33,322 nucleotides of DNA from a virus, in IMG/VR virus record IMGVR_UViG_3300025138_000175, positions 1 to 33,322 of that record, one strand, 5' to 3'. The notes under the pieces are model-generated. The model made no database searches. It saw only the letters and a program-made list of their open reading frames with translations, and had not been told where the DNA came from. A program made the translations under genes and the position numbers. Of this stretch, positions 24,817-30,019 are shown one piece after another (the first letter of the stretch is position 1; each line of letters begins with the position of its first letter).

Positions 24817-25365
24817 CTACTCCAGTGCAAGAAGCTCACCCCGTGCAGTGGGGTCGTCTTTGAGAATGCCTAGCATGCAGGATGTTGTCATCATTGCATC
24901 GGGCTGCCTTACCCCACGACAACCCATACAGGAGTGGTGAGCGCGAATCACAACACCGACCCCGCGAGCGTCAACGTGGTCGAACACAGAATGCGCAATC
25001 TGTTCAGTCATGCGCTCCTGAACCTGCAAACGCTTTGAGAACACGTCGACAACTCGTGCAAGTTTGGACAACCCCACAACACGATCGCCCGGGATGTATC
25101 CAACTGTTGCTGTGCCTTGAAACGGCAAGCAGTGGTGTTCGCACATGCTTGTGAACCGTATGCCTCGAAGTATGATTAGCTCATCGAACTTGACATCGAA
25201 CGTTGTTCCGAGAGCTTCGGCGGCGTCCATTGCGTATCCAGCAGTCATCTCCCTCCAAGCCTTTGCCACACGCTTTGGAGTATCGAGCAAGCCTTCACGA
25301 TTAGGGTCTTCACCAACGTGTTCAAGCAGTGTCCTGACTGCTGCCCTTGTTTCTTCTTCGCTCAT
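24817..25365 (-). CDS. folE: GTP cyclohydrolase I (FolE)
   Basis: This 182-residue protein starts at ATG 25365 (MSEEETRAAVRTLL), overlapping the QueE stop as ATGA; the longer frame to 25440 is inside queE. It has the complete FolE I signature: GLLDTPKRVAKAW, then SMCEHHCLPFQGTATVGYIP with zinc ligands Cys75 and His78, GLSKLARVVDVFSKRLQVQE, and HSCMGCRGV with the third zinc ligand Cys146. It converts GTP to 7,8-dihydroneopterin triphosphate, the first step to 7-deazaguanines as well as folate. Beside queD, queE and dpdA its role here is surely DNA modification. Confidence 0.95.
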   Translation of the reverse strand: MSEEETRAAVRTLLEHVGEDPNREGLLDTPKRVAKAWREMTAGYAMDAAEALGTTFDVKFDELIILRGIRFTSMCEHHCLPFQGTATVGYIPGDRVVGLSKLARVVDVFSKRLQVQERMTEQIAHSVFDHVDARGVGVVIRAHHSCMGCRGVRQPDAMMTTSCMLGILKDDPTARGELLALE

Positions 25366-26000
25366 CTTCTGTTCCAAACCTTGTGCAGTTGTGCGCACAA
25401 ACGCCACTCCGGATTCTGCTCGACGAGTTCGATGCACCATCGCAACGACTCTTGATCCAATGTGAGACCGTTGAAAGCGGGAGAAAGTAATTGATGATCC
25501 GCCTTACACTTTGGCTTTGGCACTGCTTGCCCAACACCTCGAACGTACTTTACTTCGTCTGCTGTTTCGCAACGCACTGCATGCTCTGCAACTTTAGGCG
25601 ACACAGTGATCCAATCAATGCCTCTGCCCCGCACGTCGATGGAACCATTCGTCTCGATTGCAACATAGAACCCACGCTCCTTCAACAGTTCAATCAGTCT
25701 TTTATCAAGTTGAATGCCGGGTTCGCCACCTGTGCAGATCACTGCTTTGTTGTCTGACTCTGGATTACCCGAGCCTTCGCTCCAGCACTTGTCAACAAGA
25801 TCAACGATCTCTTCAGCAGTGTGTCGGTTGCCGCTCTCAAACTCTGTGTCGCAATCAAACCCGCCCGGCGACTTGGGCCCGGCCTCTTTGGCACAACGCA
25901 TGTTGCATCCAGTGAAACGCAAGAACACGTTCGCTGTTCCTGCACGCATGCCTTCGCCTTGCAGCGAGTAGAACCATTCATTGACTTTGTAGCTTTTCAT
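25362..26000 (-). CDS. queE: 7-carboxy-7-deazaguanine synthase (QueE, radical SAM)
   Basis: This 212-residue protein starts at ATG 26000 (MKSYKVNEWFYSLQGEGM). The radical SAM cluster cysteines are C32, C36 and C50, in GCNMRC then GGFDCDTEF; this is CX3CX13C, an inserted-loop version of the canonical CX3CX2C, a kind of variation known among QueE proteins. CTGGEPGIQLD binds SAM. The enzyme converts 6-carboxy-tetrahydropterin to 7-carboxy-7-deazaguanine. The start overlaps the queD end by 23 bases. No mutation of key residues is seen. Confidence 0.93.
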   Translation of the reverse strand: MKSYKVNEWFYSLQGEGMRAGTANVFLRFTGCNMRCAKEAGPKSPGGFDCDTEFESGNRHTAEEIVDLVDKCWSEGSGNPESDNKAVICTGGEPGIQLDKRLIELLKERGFYVAIETNGSIDVRGRGIDWITVSPKVAEHAVRCETADEVKYVRGVGQAVPKPKCKADHQLLSPAFNGLTLDQESLRWCIELVEQNPEWRLCAQLHKVWNRR

Positions 26001-26424
26001 GATCTGCCTTTCTGTATACAACTGTGGAGCTTTGTGTTTCACGCAATCGAACCCACTCGACATCGAGCACGCAATTGGTCAACTTTTCATACAGCCATCG
26101 TGCCAACATTTCAGCACTGGTCGGGCCGTCGAAGTGAACAATCTTATGCGCTGACATGTCCTGTGTTGTGAGCAGTTTCATCGCCATCACGAGCGCACTG
26201 TCATCCTTGTCGACAAGTATGCTGTGATCAAGCGTGTCAGTAAAGTGCGACAGATGTGTTTCGATTTCACTGAACAGCATAGTCACACCATCGTCACCTT
26301 CTTGGCCTACGTTGAAGCATGCCGTTACGTAGTACGTGTGGCCGTGCAATGAATGACACTTGTCACCACGAAGGTGTTGGTTGCGATGTGCTGCATAGAA
26401 GTAGCCTGTGCGTTCAATCCTCAT
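25978..26424 (-). CDS. queD: 6-carboxy-tetrahydropterin synthase (QueD)
   Basis: This 148-residue protein starts at ATG 26424 (MRIERTGYFYAAHRNQH) behind AAGGAAGATCAACA. The zinc triad is His13, His27 and His29 (SLHGHTYYVTACFNV), the catalytic Cys is C23 (DKCHSLHGH), and D66-H67 (LDHSIL) and Glu129 (RLRET) complete the site. The length is normal for the family. It makes 6-carboxy-tetrahydropterin from dihydroneopterin triphosphate, the step between FolE and QueE. The coding order in the cassette places it directly before queE. Confidence 0.93.
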   Translation of the reverse strand: MRIERTGYFYAAHRNQHLRGDKCHSLHGHTYYVTACFNVGQEGDDGVTMLFSEIETHLSHFTDTLDHSILVDKDDSALVMAMKLLTTQDMSAHKIVHFDGPTSAEMLARWLYEKLTNCVLDVEWVRLRETQSSTVVYRKADHEKLQSQ

Positions 26425-26995
26425 TGTTGATCTTCCTTGTCTGCTTAGGCGTAAGCGACTTCGCTTGCATGTCGAACCAATCGACATCTTTGTAGTTGTC
26501 AAGAAACCACTTAAACAACTGAATGGCAACAACTGACCAGAACAAGCCACCGATGAACTTGCTTCCTGCTTGTGTTGCACTGAGCCAGTAGTCGACAGAA
26601 GCGAACGCGATCATTGGGAACACAATTGAATCCATGAGCGCGGCGACTGCATTGCTTATGTTCATCTTGAACATGCGATTGTGATGCCTGAACAAGTGGT
26701 ACACAAGAGCGTTCGCAATGCCTGCCAATGAGAATGCAGCAGTCGAAGCAACTGCAACGTGCAAACTGGCAGGTGAACACAAGTAGGACAACACAGATCC
26801 ACCAGCGATCAAAGCAAACATGCGAAGCCAAAGGTGATTGTGCTTCCATCGTTCGTGCAACAAGTCTCTCGTGACAAGGTCAAACGGGATCAACACAAAG
26901 GCAGTCACAGGCAGTGCAGCCTGTCCGAACGCTGCAACTGACAAGTTGGCAATCACGATTGCGGCAAGGAATACAATTACAACTGCAACAGTCAT
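26414..26995 (-). CDS. VUT/YhhQ-like membrane protein, putative 7-deazaguanine precursor transporter
   Basis: This 193-residue protein has about six hydrophobic segments. It shows the VUT-family pattern: an early ANLSVAAFG, IPFDLVTRDLLHERW, then FSLAGIANALVYHLF and ISNAVAALMDSIVFPMIAF. E. coli YhhQ of this family imports preQ0/preQ1. The start overlaps the upstream gene as ATGA and the end overlaps queD by 11 bases, so it is an integral part of the cassette. It may supply a precursor that the phage pathway cannot finish, since no QueC is present. Transport is inferred from family. Confidence 0.75.
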   Translation of the reverse strand: MTVAVVIVFLAAIVIANLSVAAFGQAALPVTAFVLIPFDLVTRDLLHERWKHNHLWLRMFALIAGGSVLSYLCSPASLHVAVASTAAFSLAGIANALVYHLFRHHNRMFKMNISNAVAALMDSIVFPMIAFASVDYWLSATQAGSKFIGGLFWSVVAIQLFKWFLDNYKDVDWFDMQAKSLTPKQTRKINNED

Positions 26996-27336
26996 GGAGA
27001 GTAGATAGCTCCGTTCTCACCGTCTTCCAGCACTTCGACCGAATTGAAATCAAACTCATCGCATATTCTTCGCGCCCACTGTTCGCACGACCATGCGTAG
27101 ATGTCGTGGTTGACAGTTGCATCGTGCATTGTTTCTTCGCACCATGTTTGCACTTCTCGCTTCTTGGCGATGAACTCAATCTCTCTTCTGCTGTCAACGC
27201 CTTGGCCTTCGACGTTGAACCAGCAAGTGACACGAAACATGTGTCGATGCAGATTGCCAAGGTACGAATGCTCGGATGGAGCGTCAGGCCAGCAGTGGAA
27301 TCCTTCGAACTCAAACTTGCACAGTAGTGTCATCAT
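26992..27336 (-). CDS. Divergent QueD-like (T-fold) protein
   Basis: This 114-residue protein aligns with the neighbouring QueD: GNLHRHMFRVTCWFNV against HSLHGHTYYVTACFNV, SCEQWARRICDEF against the QueD helix with SAEMLARWLYEKL, and VEVLEDGENGAI at the end. His14, His30 and His32 match the QueD zinc triad. The catalytic Cys before the LHxH motif and the DH pair are absent, so it is probably not a standard carboxy-tetrahydropterin synthase. The start may be either of two adjacent ATGs. It might act on a related pterin or deazapurine, or be a binding subunit. Similar small phage proteins exist without known function. Confidence 0.6.
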   Translation of the reverse strand: MMTLLCKFEFEGFHCWPDAPSEHSYLGNLHRHMFRVTCWFNVEGQGVDSRREIEFIAKKREVQTWCEETMHDATVNHDIYAWSCEQWARRICDEFDFNSVEVLEDGENGAIYSP

Positions 27337-28207
27337 CGGACAAGCCTTCTTTCATGTATCCATGTTTGACGATTAGTTGCCTCGCAACTTTAATCATATC
27401 AACTTCAGCAAGCGTGCCGAGTGCCATGAACGTTCGTGTTCCCAGTTGCTGCCTCAGTTCGATGACGTAACGCAACCACGACATGGTCGTAACACGTTGA
27501 TGAATGCCTTTGTTTGTGACCCACTGCTCTGTGTTCTGCAATTCGCGCACTGTGTATCCAGCGTCATTGATAGCTCTTTTCATCTGCATGCTGATTGGTT
27601 GTGTTGCAACATTGTCACGACCTAACCTTGTCATCTTGCCTTTGCCTTCGTACACGTGAACTTGTGCAAACAACATGCCAGTCTTCCAACTCATTGCATC
27701 GCAACTGTGTGGCGTAAGGCTCGCAACCATGTCGAAGTTTGTGTATCCAAGCCAATGCACCTTGCGGCCTTTCGCCATTCGCATCTTGTCGACTACATAC
27801 CCCTTCGGTGCTGGACCACGTCCGGGCCTTCTGAAACCTCCGAGACATATCTTTGATGCACGCTCGAACAGTTCATCCATCTTCTTTGCAGTGTCGCCCC
27901 AAACATGCACGGGCATTGGATCCAAACCTGCATCCCACATCACTTTGAGGTTGCTTGCTGTGGCAGCAGGATTCCCAAGCACGTCGAGAGCAACAAAGCC
28001 ACCAGTGAACTGATCGCCGTAAGTTGAGACGAACTCCATGTATTCATCTAGTTCAATGACAGCCCCAGCGTTCTTTGCACTGAACGCGCCACTGTCTAAC
28101 ATGACCTCGAACCCGTCAGCAGTTGCGCCGCCGTGAGTGAAGTAGCGTTTCCGTTCTTCGCCGAGCTTCCTGAGATAGTGGTACGAAATCAGGATAGGGA
28201 TACGCAC
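27311..28207 (-). CDS. dpdA: DpdA-type 7-deazaguanine DNA transglycosylase
   Basis: This 298-residue protein is counted from GTG 28207 (VRIPILISYHYL), preceded by CAGGAACTTT; an in-frame ATG at 28297 would add 30 residues but overlaps the ParB-like gene. It belongs to the tRNA-guanine transglycosylase superfamily in the phage DpdA form: VMLDSGAFSAKNAGAV (Asp38), FVALDVLGNP (Asp75), KICLGGFRRP, HWLGYTNFD, and HSCDAMSW with candidate nucleophile Asp170. DpdA enzymes replace guanine in DNA with a 7-deazaguanine base. The flanking folE, queD and queE genes make a DNA-modification role very likely. Confidence 0.85.
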   Translation of the reverse strand: MRIPILISYHYLRKLGEERKRYFTHGGATADGFEVMLDSGAFSAKNAGAVIELDEYMEFVSTYGDQFTGGFVALDVLGNPAATASNLKVMWDAGLDPMPVHVWGDTAKKMDELFERASKICLGGFRRPGRGPAPKGYVVDKMRMAKGRKVHWLGYTNFDMVASLTPHSCDAMSWKTGMLFAQVHVYEGKGKMTRLGRDNVATQPISMQMKRAINDAGYTVRELQNTEQWVTNKGIHQRVTTMSWLRYVIELRQQLGTRTFMALGTLAEVDMIKVARQLIVKHGYMKEGLSDDDTTVQV

Positions 28208-28247
28208 AAAGTTCCTGTGTCCTTGTGCATGCACAACTCCGCAAGGC

Positions 28248-28808
28248 TTAGAACGCTTCTGCTTTGTATTTGTATTCACTGTTGTTGAGTGTCTCATTGA
28301 TAAGGTCCGTCACTGCTTGTTTGTCGTCGTGACTCACACCAACTACTTTCACAACGTAGTTCTCGTGAACTTTCTCGTCGTAGTCAATGTCCGCAATGCC
28401 TTCAATCTCAGGCCAGCTTTGTTGCATGCTGTCGAGTTCAGATTGATTGAACCCAACAGTTTCAATTGTCATTCCAAGGCTTGCAAGCTCTTCGAGTGTT
28501 CGTTGCAGTTGTTCGTCGTCCCAACCACCCAACTCGCTTGTTCGATTGTCAGCAACAGCGAAGGCAGTTTGTCCGACCTGTTCGAGACTTGAAACAACTA
28601 CGAACAGTTCTTCCCAGCCTAGCTCTTTCGCTGCTTGCGTTGTGCAGTGGCCCGCGATGATTTGGCCTTCTTCGTTGATGACGATCGGCTTCTGTTGCCC
28701 GAAGTTTTCGAGGCTCGCTTTGACTGCTTCTTTGTTTCTTTCGTCGTGCTGCCTTGCGTTGTTTGGGTCTTCCGTGAGGTCTTTGATCTTGCGGGTCTTG
28801 ACTTGCAT
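28248..28808 (-). CDS. ParB/Srx-like domain protein
   Basis: This 186-residue protein starts at ATG 28808 behind TTGGAGACACA. It has the ParB-like pattern: KIKDLTEDPNNARQHDERN, SLENFGQQKPIVINEEGQII and AGHCTTQAAKELGW. The C-terminal half is acidic and helical with no catalytic methylase motif, although such N-termini often precede DNA methylases. It is directly upstream of dpdA. Bacterial dpd islands also pair DpdA with a ParB/DndB-like partner (DpdB), so a helper role in base exchange is a reasonable inference. The first 190 bases are overlapped by the tail of the upstream gene. Confidence 0.75.
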   Translation of the reverse strand: MQVKTRKIKDLTEDPNNARQHDERNKEAVKASLENFGQQKPIVINEEGQIIAGHCTTQAAKELGWEELFVVVSSLEQVGQTAFAVADNRTSELGGWDDEQLQRTLEELASLGMTIETVGFNQSELDSMQQSWPEIEGIADIDYDEKVHENYVVKVVGVSHDDKQAVTDLINETLNNSEYKYKAEAF

Positions 28809-29063: not shown

Positions 29064-29243
29064 TTAATCGTCCTCGTCCTCGTCGTCATCGTCGGGTTCA
29101 TACCCGAACAACTTGTCGACGGCCACATCCATGAGAACGCCGACAACGGAGAAGTGGTCGAGATCGAATTCGGTCTGCCACCACATCACCCGAGCTTCGA
29201 GTTCTTCCTTGAACTTGTCTGCTGCTGTCCGAGGTTTACTCAT
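29064..29243 (-). CDS. Small acidic-tailed protein (59 aa)
   Basis: This frame encodes 59 residues beginning MSKPRTAADKFKEELEARVM. The start overlaps the metallophosphoesterase stop as ATGA and the stop is one base before the next start, so it is tightly coupled on both sides. After a helical, Trp-containing body the last 10 residues are nearly all Asp and Glu. It is followed by a protein with a very basic tail, so the two could interact. It is short enough to be missed by gene finders. Confidence 0.7.
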   Translation of the reverse strand: MSKPRTAADKFKEELEARVMWWQTEFDLDHFSVVGVLMDVAVDKLFGYEPDDDDEDEDD

Positions 29244-30019
29244 CGTGAACCTTTACGAATTAACTCTGCATCCCAACACTTGCCGTGAAGGTGACTAGGT
29301 TTATCCCATTTCGCTTCGACCACGAGTATAGCTGCATCCCACTGACTCGTATCTTTACGAGCAGCCCACTCGGGATTCAATGGTCCGCATGTTCCAACGT
29401 TTGCATAGTAATACGGCAAAGGGATCCGTGCAGTTCTCTTCGCTTGCGTTGGTGGCACTGGCCTGTGTGTGTGTCCACGCACAGCGAGCGAATGAGGTAT
29501 CCATCCGCTTAACCCAATCATCTGCAATCCTTCAAGTTCGTCGGAGTTGCCACCAGCGTCAAACCCATGCCAATAGTGAACTTGGCCCACCCTGTAGACT
29601 GCTTTCTTTGTCTTTGTATATGGCAGCCATTGCCAATTCGCTGCCTCCTTGCTGAACTGCTCGTGATTAGACCAATGCACCATCGAGCGCAATGACTTCG
29701 GAATACGCCTTGGATCCGAGGTCATTATGTTGTCATCATGATTGCCTGTGTTGATCCAACGACGACAGTCGTGCGGGATGACTTCCCTTATCGAGTGCAG
29801 GAATGCAGCAGCATGTTCAAACTCATCACACAATGAATGTGTGTACTCATTCGCATGCACAGATGCAGCAGCTCCCTCGAACACGTCACCTAGATGTCCG
29901 AAGTGCGTTAGACCATCGATGCGCGAAAGCGTGTCGAGGAGCCACTGATGAGTTTCAGGAGGCGTGAAAGGTGCATGTGTGCAAGATATCGTCGCGATCT
30001 TTGCGGTTCGCACAGTCAT
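29240..30019 (-). CDS. Calcineurin-like metallophosphoesterase
   Basis: This 259-residue protein starts at ATG 30019 behind AAGTAGGTGACGA. Metal-binding motifs appear in order: ISCTHAPF where DxH is usual, HLGDVFEG, TGNHDDN, VHYWHGF and RGHTHRP. The first motif has Cys in place of the canonical Asp, while the rest are intact, so activity is likely but metal preference may differ. Phage enzymes of this type act on phosphodiesters of nucleic acids or small nucleotides. The substrate is unknown. It lies upstream of the ParB/dpd group. Confidence 0.88.
   Translation of the reverse strand: MTVRTAKIATISCTHAPFTPPETHQWLLDTLSRIDGLTHFGHLGDVFEGAAASVHANEYTHSLCDEFEHAAAFLHSIREVIPHDCRRWINTGNHDDNIMTSDPRRIPKSLRSMVHWSNHEQFSKEAANWQWLPYTKTKKAVYRVGQVHYWHGFDAGGNSDELEGLQMIGLSGWIPHSLAVRGHTHRPVPPTQAKRTARIPLPYYYANVGTCGPLNPEWAARKDTSQWDAAILVVEAKWDKPSHLHGKCWDAELIRKGSR

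Follow-up and report, generated by a model that had tools for sequence, protein, structure and literature searches.

A viral cassette predicted to install 7-deazaguanine in DNA, with a QueD-like protein in the place of QueC

The linear IMG/VR virus record IMGVR_UViG_3300025138_000175, analysed here over its whole length of 33,322 bp (the window), carries on its minus strand, from 28808 to 24817, a cassette of seven genes in the order ParB-like protein, DpdA, small QueD-like protein, VUT transporter, QueD, QueE and FolE. As a phage operon for 7-deazaguanine modification of DNA, this cassette belongs to the DpdL type; it has a ParB–DpdA pair and a VUT gene and is a new variant within known systems. 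We consider it probable that the operon makes 7-deazaguanine (DG) and installs it in DNA (as dDG), with the QueD-like, DpdL-type protein standing in for QueC. FolE, QueD and QueE would convert GTP to 7-carboxy-7-deazaguanine (CDG), from which the zinc-binding T-fold protein of the DpdL type would most likely remove the carboxyl group to give DG. DpdA, probably together with its ParB-like partner, would then exchange guanines in the phage DNA for DG, and DG in the DNA would protect it against restriction. The VUT protein would be an accessory of this version of the cassette and may take the free base back up or add to its supply.

A first-pass annotation of the window had recognised a DpdA-type modification cassette whose FolE, QueD and QueE end at CDG, and had reported that QueC is missing. 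Both points held: all four enzymes gave profile matches, and QueC was not found when the six frames of the record were searched with PF06508, a search that was positive in 12 of 14 control genomes. QueC was also not found in longer records of the same type, of 53.6 and 64.1 kb. In order to avoid choosing loci by the answer, a survey was gathered by QueE alone; its query was a 7-row alignment seeded from DpdL-type loci, a 16-row QueE alignment being too diverse for searching. Among the best 80 of 465 phage loci, with QueC sought in each whole record and the QueD-like gene and VUT sought in the loci, 18 had the QueD-like gene, 47 had QueC, 15 had neither and none had both (Fisher p 3e-9, kinship among loci not corrected for). 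Searched in turn for the QueD-like gene, the 47 QueC-bearing survey records gave 0 matches, and QueC was found in 0 of 25 independently found records with the QueD-like gene. The sole QueC match in 10 named phage records (nine with the QueD-like gene, plus Bipper) was a weak and partial one in Vibrio phage D479. Chance co-occurrence was rejected on the basis of this survey together with the trees described below. In QueC-type loci, QueC is flanked by dpdA and queD and fills the slot that the QueD-like gene holds elsewhere. The QueD-like gene replaces QueC, so that CDG would not be left unfinished.

For the QueD-like protein, a single-sequence search returned phrog_17812 as the sole match, and a scan of viral contigs yielded 25 further loci, nearly all of them adjoining FolE, QueD or QueE; relatives occur in named phages including Acidovorax ACP17, Cellulophaga phiST, Chryseobacterium MA9V-3 and Faecalibacterium Roos. 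The family profile matches that of QueD (hhalign E 1.4e-6), and an AlphaFold2 model (pLDDT 92) gave its best Foldseek matches to E. coli QueD and to other proteins of the PTPS fold (E 3e-5). The modelled fold and the zinc histidine triad identify it as a member of the QueD/PTPS T-fold superfamily. Residues H14, L26, H30, H32, F34, R51, E54, S83-C84-E85 and E104 are invariant in an alignment of 28 sequences. Compared with E. coli QueD, the zinc histidines H14/H30/H32 and the C-terminal glutamate E104 are kept; the catalytic Cys27 is replaced by the invariant Leu26, and the segment with Asp70-His71 is deleted in the 28 sequences. With the QueD fold retained and both the catalytic cysteine and the Asp-His pair lost, the protein seems hardly capable of the QueD reaction. 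Five pairs gave dN/dS values of 0-0.22, which indicates purifying selection on the gene, and a check for a bacterial origin gave 3 matches only, all in metagenome-assembled contigs. Since this family replaces QueC, in the position that QueC occupies elsewhere, and combines the QueD fold with a remodelled active site, the cassette has its own finishing step, which is most likely the conversion of CDG to 7-deazaguanine. Judged from the residues, decarboxylation would be the most plausible reaction, given a zinc site and guanine-anchoring Glu that are kept beside new invariant Arg and Glu residues. The common inference that a cassette with no QueC must end in CDG or draw on host preQ0 is hereby corrected: the QueC slot holds another finishing enzyme.

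The replacement has occurred repeatedly. QueC and the QueD-like gene interchange 15 times on the best QueE tree, at least five of them on strongly supported (starred) branches, all in the expected direction. On the DpdA tree the DpdL-type label shows strong clustering, with 0 of 500 shuffles as low, and on the QueE tree it shows none (149 of 500); for the same 66 loci, the label changes 7 times on the former and 13 times on the latter. An exchange of this kind is seen between two contigs, L052 and L055. Their sequences agree at 97.4% over a stretch of 743 nt that ends inside parB and at 95.6% over another of 3,508 nt that begins just ahead of queD; in the interval between these two stretches no nucleotide similarity is detectable. 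In the intervening block, the ParB C-terminus and DpdA are accompanied in L052 (890-2819, 1.9 kb) by the QueD-like gene and VUT, and in L055 (743-2824, 2.1 kb) by a QueF-like gene (PF14489 E 3e-16) and QueC (PF06508 E 3e-57); the two ParB proteins share their N-terminal halves and differ in their C-terminal parts. Given that L052 and L055 differ by this block alone, the transglycosylase and the finishing enzyme travel together. We lean, by a little, towards the view that phages switch their DNA base by swapping a block in which one or more finishing enzymes are joined to DpdA and the C-terminus of ParB. The block would exist in a QueC or QueF–QueC version and a DpdL–VUT version, the N-terminal domain of ParB and the half of the cassette that makes CDG would be kept, and the transglycosylase would move with the base-making enzyme. 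We know of no earlier description of such recurrent block exchange, which is the most interesting part of the finding. Near-identical phages that differ in one block constitute a natural experiment on the switching of a DNA base, which plausibly lets phages evade restriction or defences directed at deazaguanine; the same swap bears on whether the specificity of DpdA follows the base.

Several observations weigh against these readings. The sign test on the starred branches comprises only five pairs and gives p 0.06. Three QueC records (L045, L046 and L053) fall within the DpdA clade of the window, and that clade is thus not strictly tied to the base. The record itself may be incomplete. A glycosyltransferase adjoins dpdL in about half of the DpdL-type loci, so the final base may differ there. 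As to the name, we presume the QueD-like protein to be the DpdL of Cui et al. 2023 (NAR gkad657), which is reportedly predicted, and not proven, to be a CDG decarboxylase. DpdL is reportedly a QueD-like gene that accompanies CDG genes in the absence of QueC, which fits the gene of the window. That the two are the same protein is a lead, which the tests of fold, active site and exclusivity with QueC support, the sequence matches to presumed DpdL phages being those to the proteins of ACP17 and phiST.

The missing QueC had led the first-pass annotation to suggest that the DNA may carry CDG, or else that host QueC or imported preQ0 completes the base; it mentioned a QueD paralogue without using it in the interpretation. 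Now that this family is seen to replace QueC, to occupy its slot and to have a remodelled active site, both outcomes are less likely than 7-deazaguanine. Hosts may provide precursors (PMC6884629), VUT relatives import preQ0 or preQ1 (PMC11130926), and phages such as PEAT2 have a VUT gene adjoining dpdA with no synthesis genes annotated nearby, all of which would be in keeping with a host QueC, or import via VUT, supplying preQ0 for insertion by DpdA. Were preQ0 imported here, however, FolE, QueD, QueE and the DpdL-type gene would be pointless, and their presence is left unexplained. Moreover, the DpdL-type survey loci that have no VUT gene also have no QueC (8 of 8), and near-identical phages carry either QueC or DpdL–VUT; a preQ0 supply of this kind is unlikely.

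A pathway that ends at CDG, with the QueD-like protein merely binding CDG or channelling it to DpdA so that dCDG is formed, would agree with the missing QueC, and a non-catalytic binder is conceivable for a protein that has lost the catalytic Cys and Asp-His pair of QueD. It seems quite unlikely nonetheless, considering that 28 diverse sequences share an invariant metal site along with several invariant new residues, that the gene repeatedly replaces an enzyme, and that loci with neither QueC nor DpdL (L062, L063 and L081) offer better candidates for dCDG. It could also be argued that the base is further modified, or made at the nucleotide level, and that VUT or a glycosyltransferase partner marks an extra step. 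A glycosyltransferase (EX7E, R-X4-K) adjoins dpdL in many loci and is found in 0 of the 47 QueC survey records, and in another class dpdL accompanies, or is fused to, a P-loop kinase. Yet the window has neither of these partners, and L042 has a minimal DpdA-DpdL-QueD-QueE-FolE set with no partner at all, which makes an additional step here very improbable. Conversion of CDG to 7-deazaguanine by the DpdL-type protein thus stays the preferred reading, and testable questions on undescribed steps arise from the link of dpdL to a VUT transporter or a glycosyltransferase.

The seven genes are listed in Table 1. The first-pass annotation had placed folE, queD, queE and dpdA as consecutive and overlapping genes, together with a transporter-like gene, a QueD paralogue and a ParB-like gene. 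Every one of these is present, on the minus strand and overlapping; dpdA, however, is separated from queD-queE-folE by the QueD-like gene and the transporter. From ParB to FolE, each gene shares 4-50 nt with the next, as it would in a single operon. The likely starts of QueD (26424), QueE (26000) and FolE (25365) were taken from homology and relatives and not from the first start codons of the open reading frames; that of QueD is an ATG, in a frame that itself opens at 26580. Catalytic motifs are recognisable in FolE, QueD and QueE, all three being present, and the alignment profile of QueD matches PDB 4ntm (QueD). Small genes, the large terminase, the portal and the major head protein lie 3' of FolE in the order of transcription. 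Upstream of parB, at 29240-30019 of the window, is a metallophosphoesterase-like gene (phrog_221 E 2e-8); L008 and L009 have weak relatives of it, likewise upstream of their cassettes. PADLOC returned no deazaguanine-defence match.

Table 1. Genes of the cassette, in order of transcription, with the matches that identify them.
Feature	Position	Strand	Evidence
ParB-like (DpdB-like) partner of DpdA	28248..28808	-	phrog_620 E 5.5e-39; PF02195 E 4e-5; 50-nt overlap with dpdA
DpdA, DNA-guanine transglycosylase	27311..28297	-	phrog_887 E 3e-23; motifs DSGAF (D68) and SCDAMSW (D200)
Small QueD-like T-fold protein, DpdL-type, 114 aa; proposed CDG decarboxylase	26992..27336	-	phrog_17812 E 4e-12
VUT/QPTR-type membrane transporter	26414..26995	-	PF02592 E 3.5e-6; phrog_4899 E 4e-32
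QueD, CPH4 synthase	25978..26424	-	PF01242 E 5e-22; TIGR03367 E 4e-17; C-x3-HGH intact
QueE, CDG synthase, radical SAM	25362..26000	-	TIGR04508 E 2e-45; phrog_2076 E 4e-31; CX3C-X13-C cluster motif
FolE, GTP cyclohydrolase I	24817..25365	-	PF01227 E 2e-69; TIGR00063 above cut-off

The identification of DpdA rests on profiles and motifs, because its structure model is poor (pLDDT 61) and the Foldseek matches are generic TIM barrels only. The two Asp residues, D68 and D200, are invariant in the local alignment set, and tblastn indicates homology to the DpdA of named phages, including CAjan and 9g, with only about 30% identity to those two. Matches were to phage DpdA PHROGs only, with none in Pfam or NCBIfam at E 0.01, and a sequence search of the PDB was empty. 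An identity as a tRNA-acting transglycosylase (TGT) finds no support, no recognisable TGT match having been found in Pfam or NCBIfam. A search for related loci with the DpdA of the window found none, and the relatives were reached via the QueD-like gene and QueE. The ParB-like gene adjoins dpdA in the window and in most relatives; bacterial DpdA is known to act with a ParB-superfamily partner, DpdB (PMC6392294, PMC12839542).

The transporter has 5 transmembrane helices predicted from hydropathy and lies just above the Pfam cut-off (PF02592, 27.9 bits against 27.2) and below that of TIGR00697 (23 against 50.95, E 5.8e-5); its relatives in L041 and L058 clear the Pfam cut-off. VUT was found in 11 survey loci, beside dpdL in 10 of these, and 8 of the 18 DpdL-type survey loci have none. 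Re-uptake or supplementation of a free base is our guess for its role.

Phage DpdA systems were described by Hutinet et al. 2019 (PMC6884629) for CAjan, Rosebush (dPreQ0) and 9g (dG+). The window resembles these in having a DpdA-family transglycosylase in the same operon as FolE, QueD and QueE, and presumably also in post-replicative base exchange and protection against restriction. It differs from them in that it has no QueC, Gat-QueC, QueF-L or ArcS, the slot of QueC being filled by the QueD-like protein and VUT. The dPreQ0, dG+ and dPreQ1 subtype requires an encoded QueC or Gat-QueC, for which the six frames of the record gave no PF06508 match.

Another likeness is that to Mycobacterium phage Bipper (KU728633), which has the order ParB-like, DpdA, QueD, QueE, FolE and terminase, and no QueC; unlike the window, it has no detected DpdL-type or VUT gene, and an unrelated gene of 142 aa stands between dpdA and queD. 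Gp4 of Bipper was rejected as a DpdL homologue, as the DpdL profile did not match it. Hutinet et al. (PMC6884629) suggested CDG for this phage. Bipper (L036), L062, L063 and L081 have FolE-QueD-QueE-DpdA cassettes with neither QueC nor a DpdL-type gene in records of 42-78 kb, and all four are better candidates for dCDG than the window. Bacterial Dpd islands also combine DpdA with a ParB-superfamily partner (PMC6392294, PMC12839542); in contrast to the window, they have DpdC and a restriction operon, and they insert preQ0. The tubercidin pathway of Streptomyces (PMC6112128) likewise makes CDG without QueC and removes its carboxyl group later, and so provides a precedent for QueC-free decarboxylation of CDG with a different enzyme, a UbiD-family decarboxylase that acts on a nucleotide, in place of a T-fold protein, and leads to an antibiotic and not to DNA.

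The DpdL or dDG phages of Cui et al. 2023 reportedly also have CDG-making genes and a QueD-like protein, and no QueC. ACP17 and phiST, reportedly examples from that study, hold relatives of the QueD-like protein; they have no phrog_887 DpdA and carry a glycosyltransferase or a DpdA3-like partner, unlike the window with its DpdA, ParB-like protein and VUT. Most other DpdL-type loci have either a glycosyltransferase or a member of a 270-aa family that shows DpdA-like motifs and is often accompanied by a P-loop kinase, and the final base in these forms may differ. GT4-like glycosyltransferases with the EX7E and R-X4-K motifs stand beside dpdL at L022:10754-11830, L008:6637-7650, L026 (ACP17):6972-8000 and L030:8366-9457, among others. 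The 270-aa protein, which bears the motifs LDNGAF and WDSSS and whose profile matches that of DpdA weakly (hhalign E 0.001, probability 20%), occurs in L028 (phiST):7385-9547, L029, L002, L016 and L019, loci in which phrog_887 DpdA is absent. In L016 and L019 the DpdL-type protein and a P-loop kinase form a fusion, and phiST has a MazG-like gene; such loci suggest a nucleotide-level route. In Chryseobacterium phage MA9V-3, one annotated frame (L029:7428-8330) has an endonuclease VII-like domain followed by a DpdL-type domain. An open frame of 1767 aa at L103:6421-11721, possibly a fusion, combines a DpdA profile match with an ATP-dependent DNA ligase domain.

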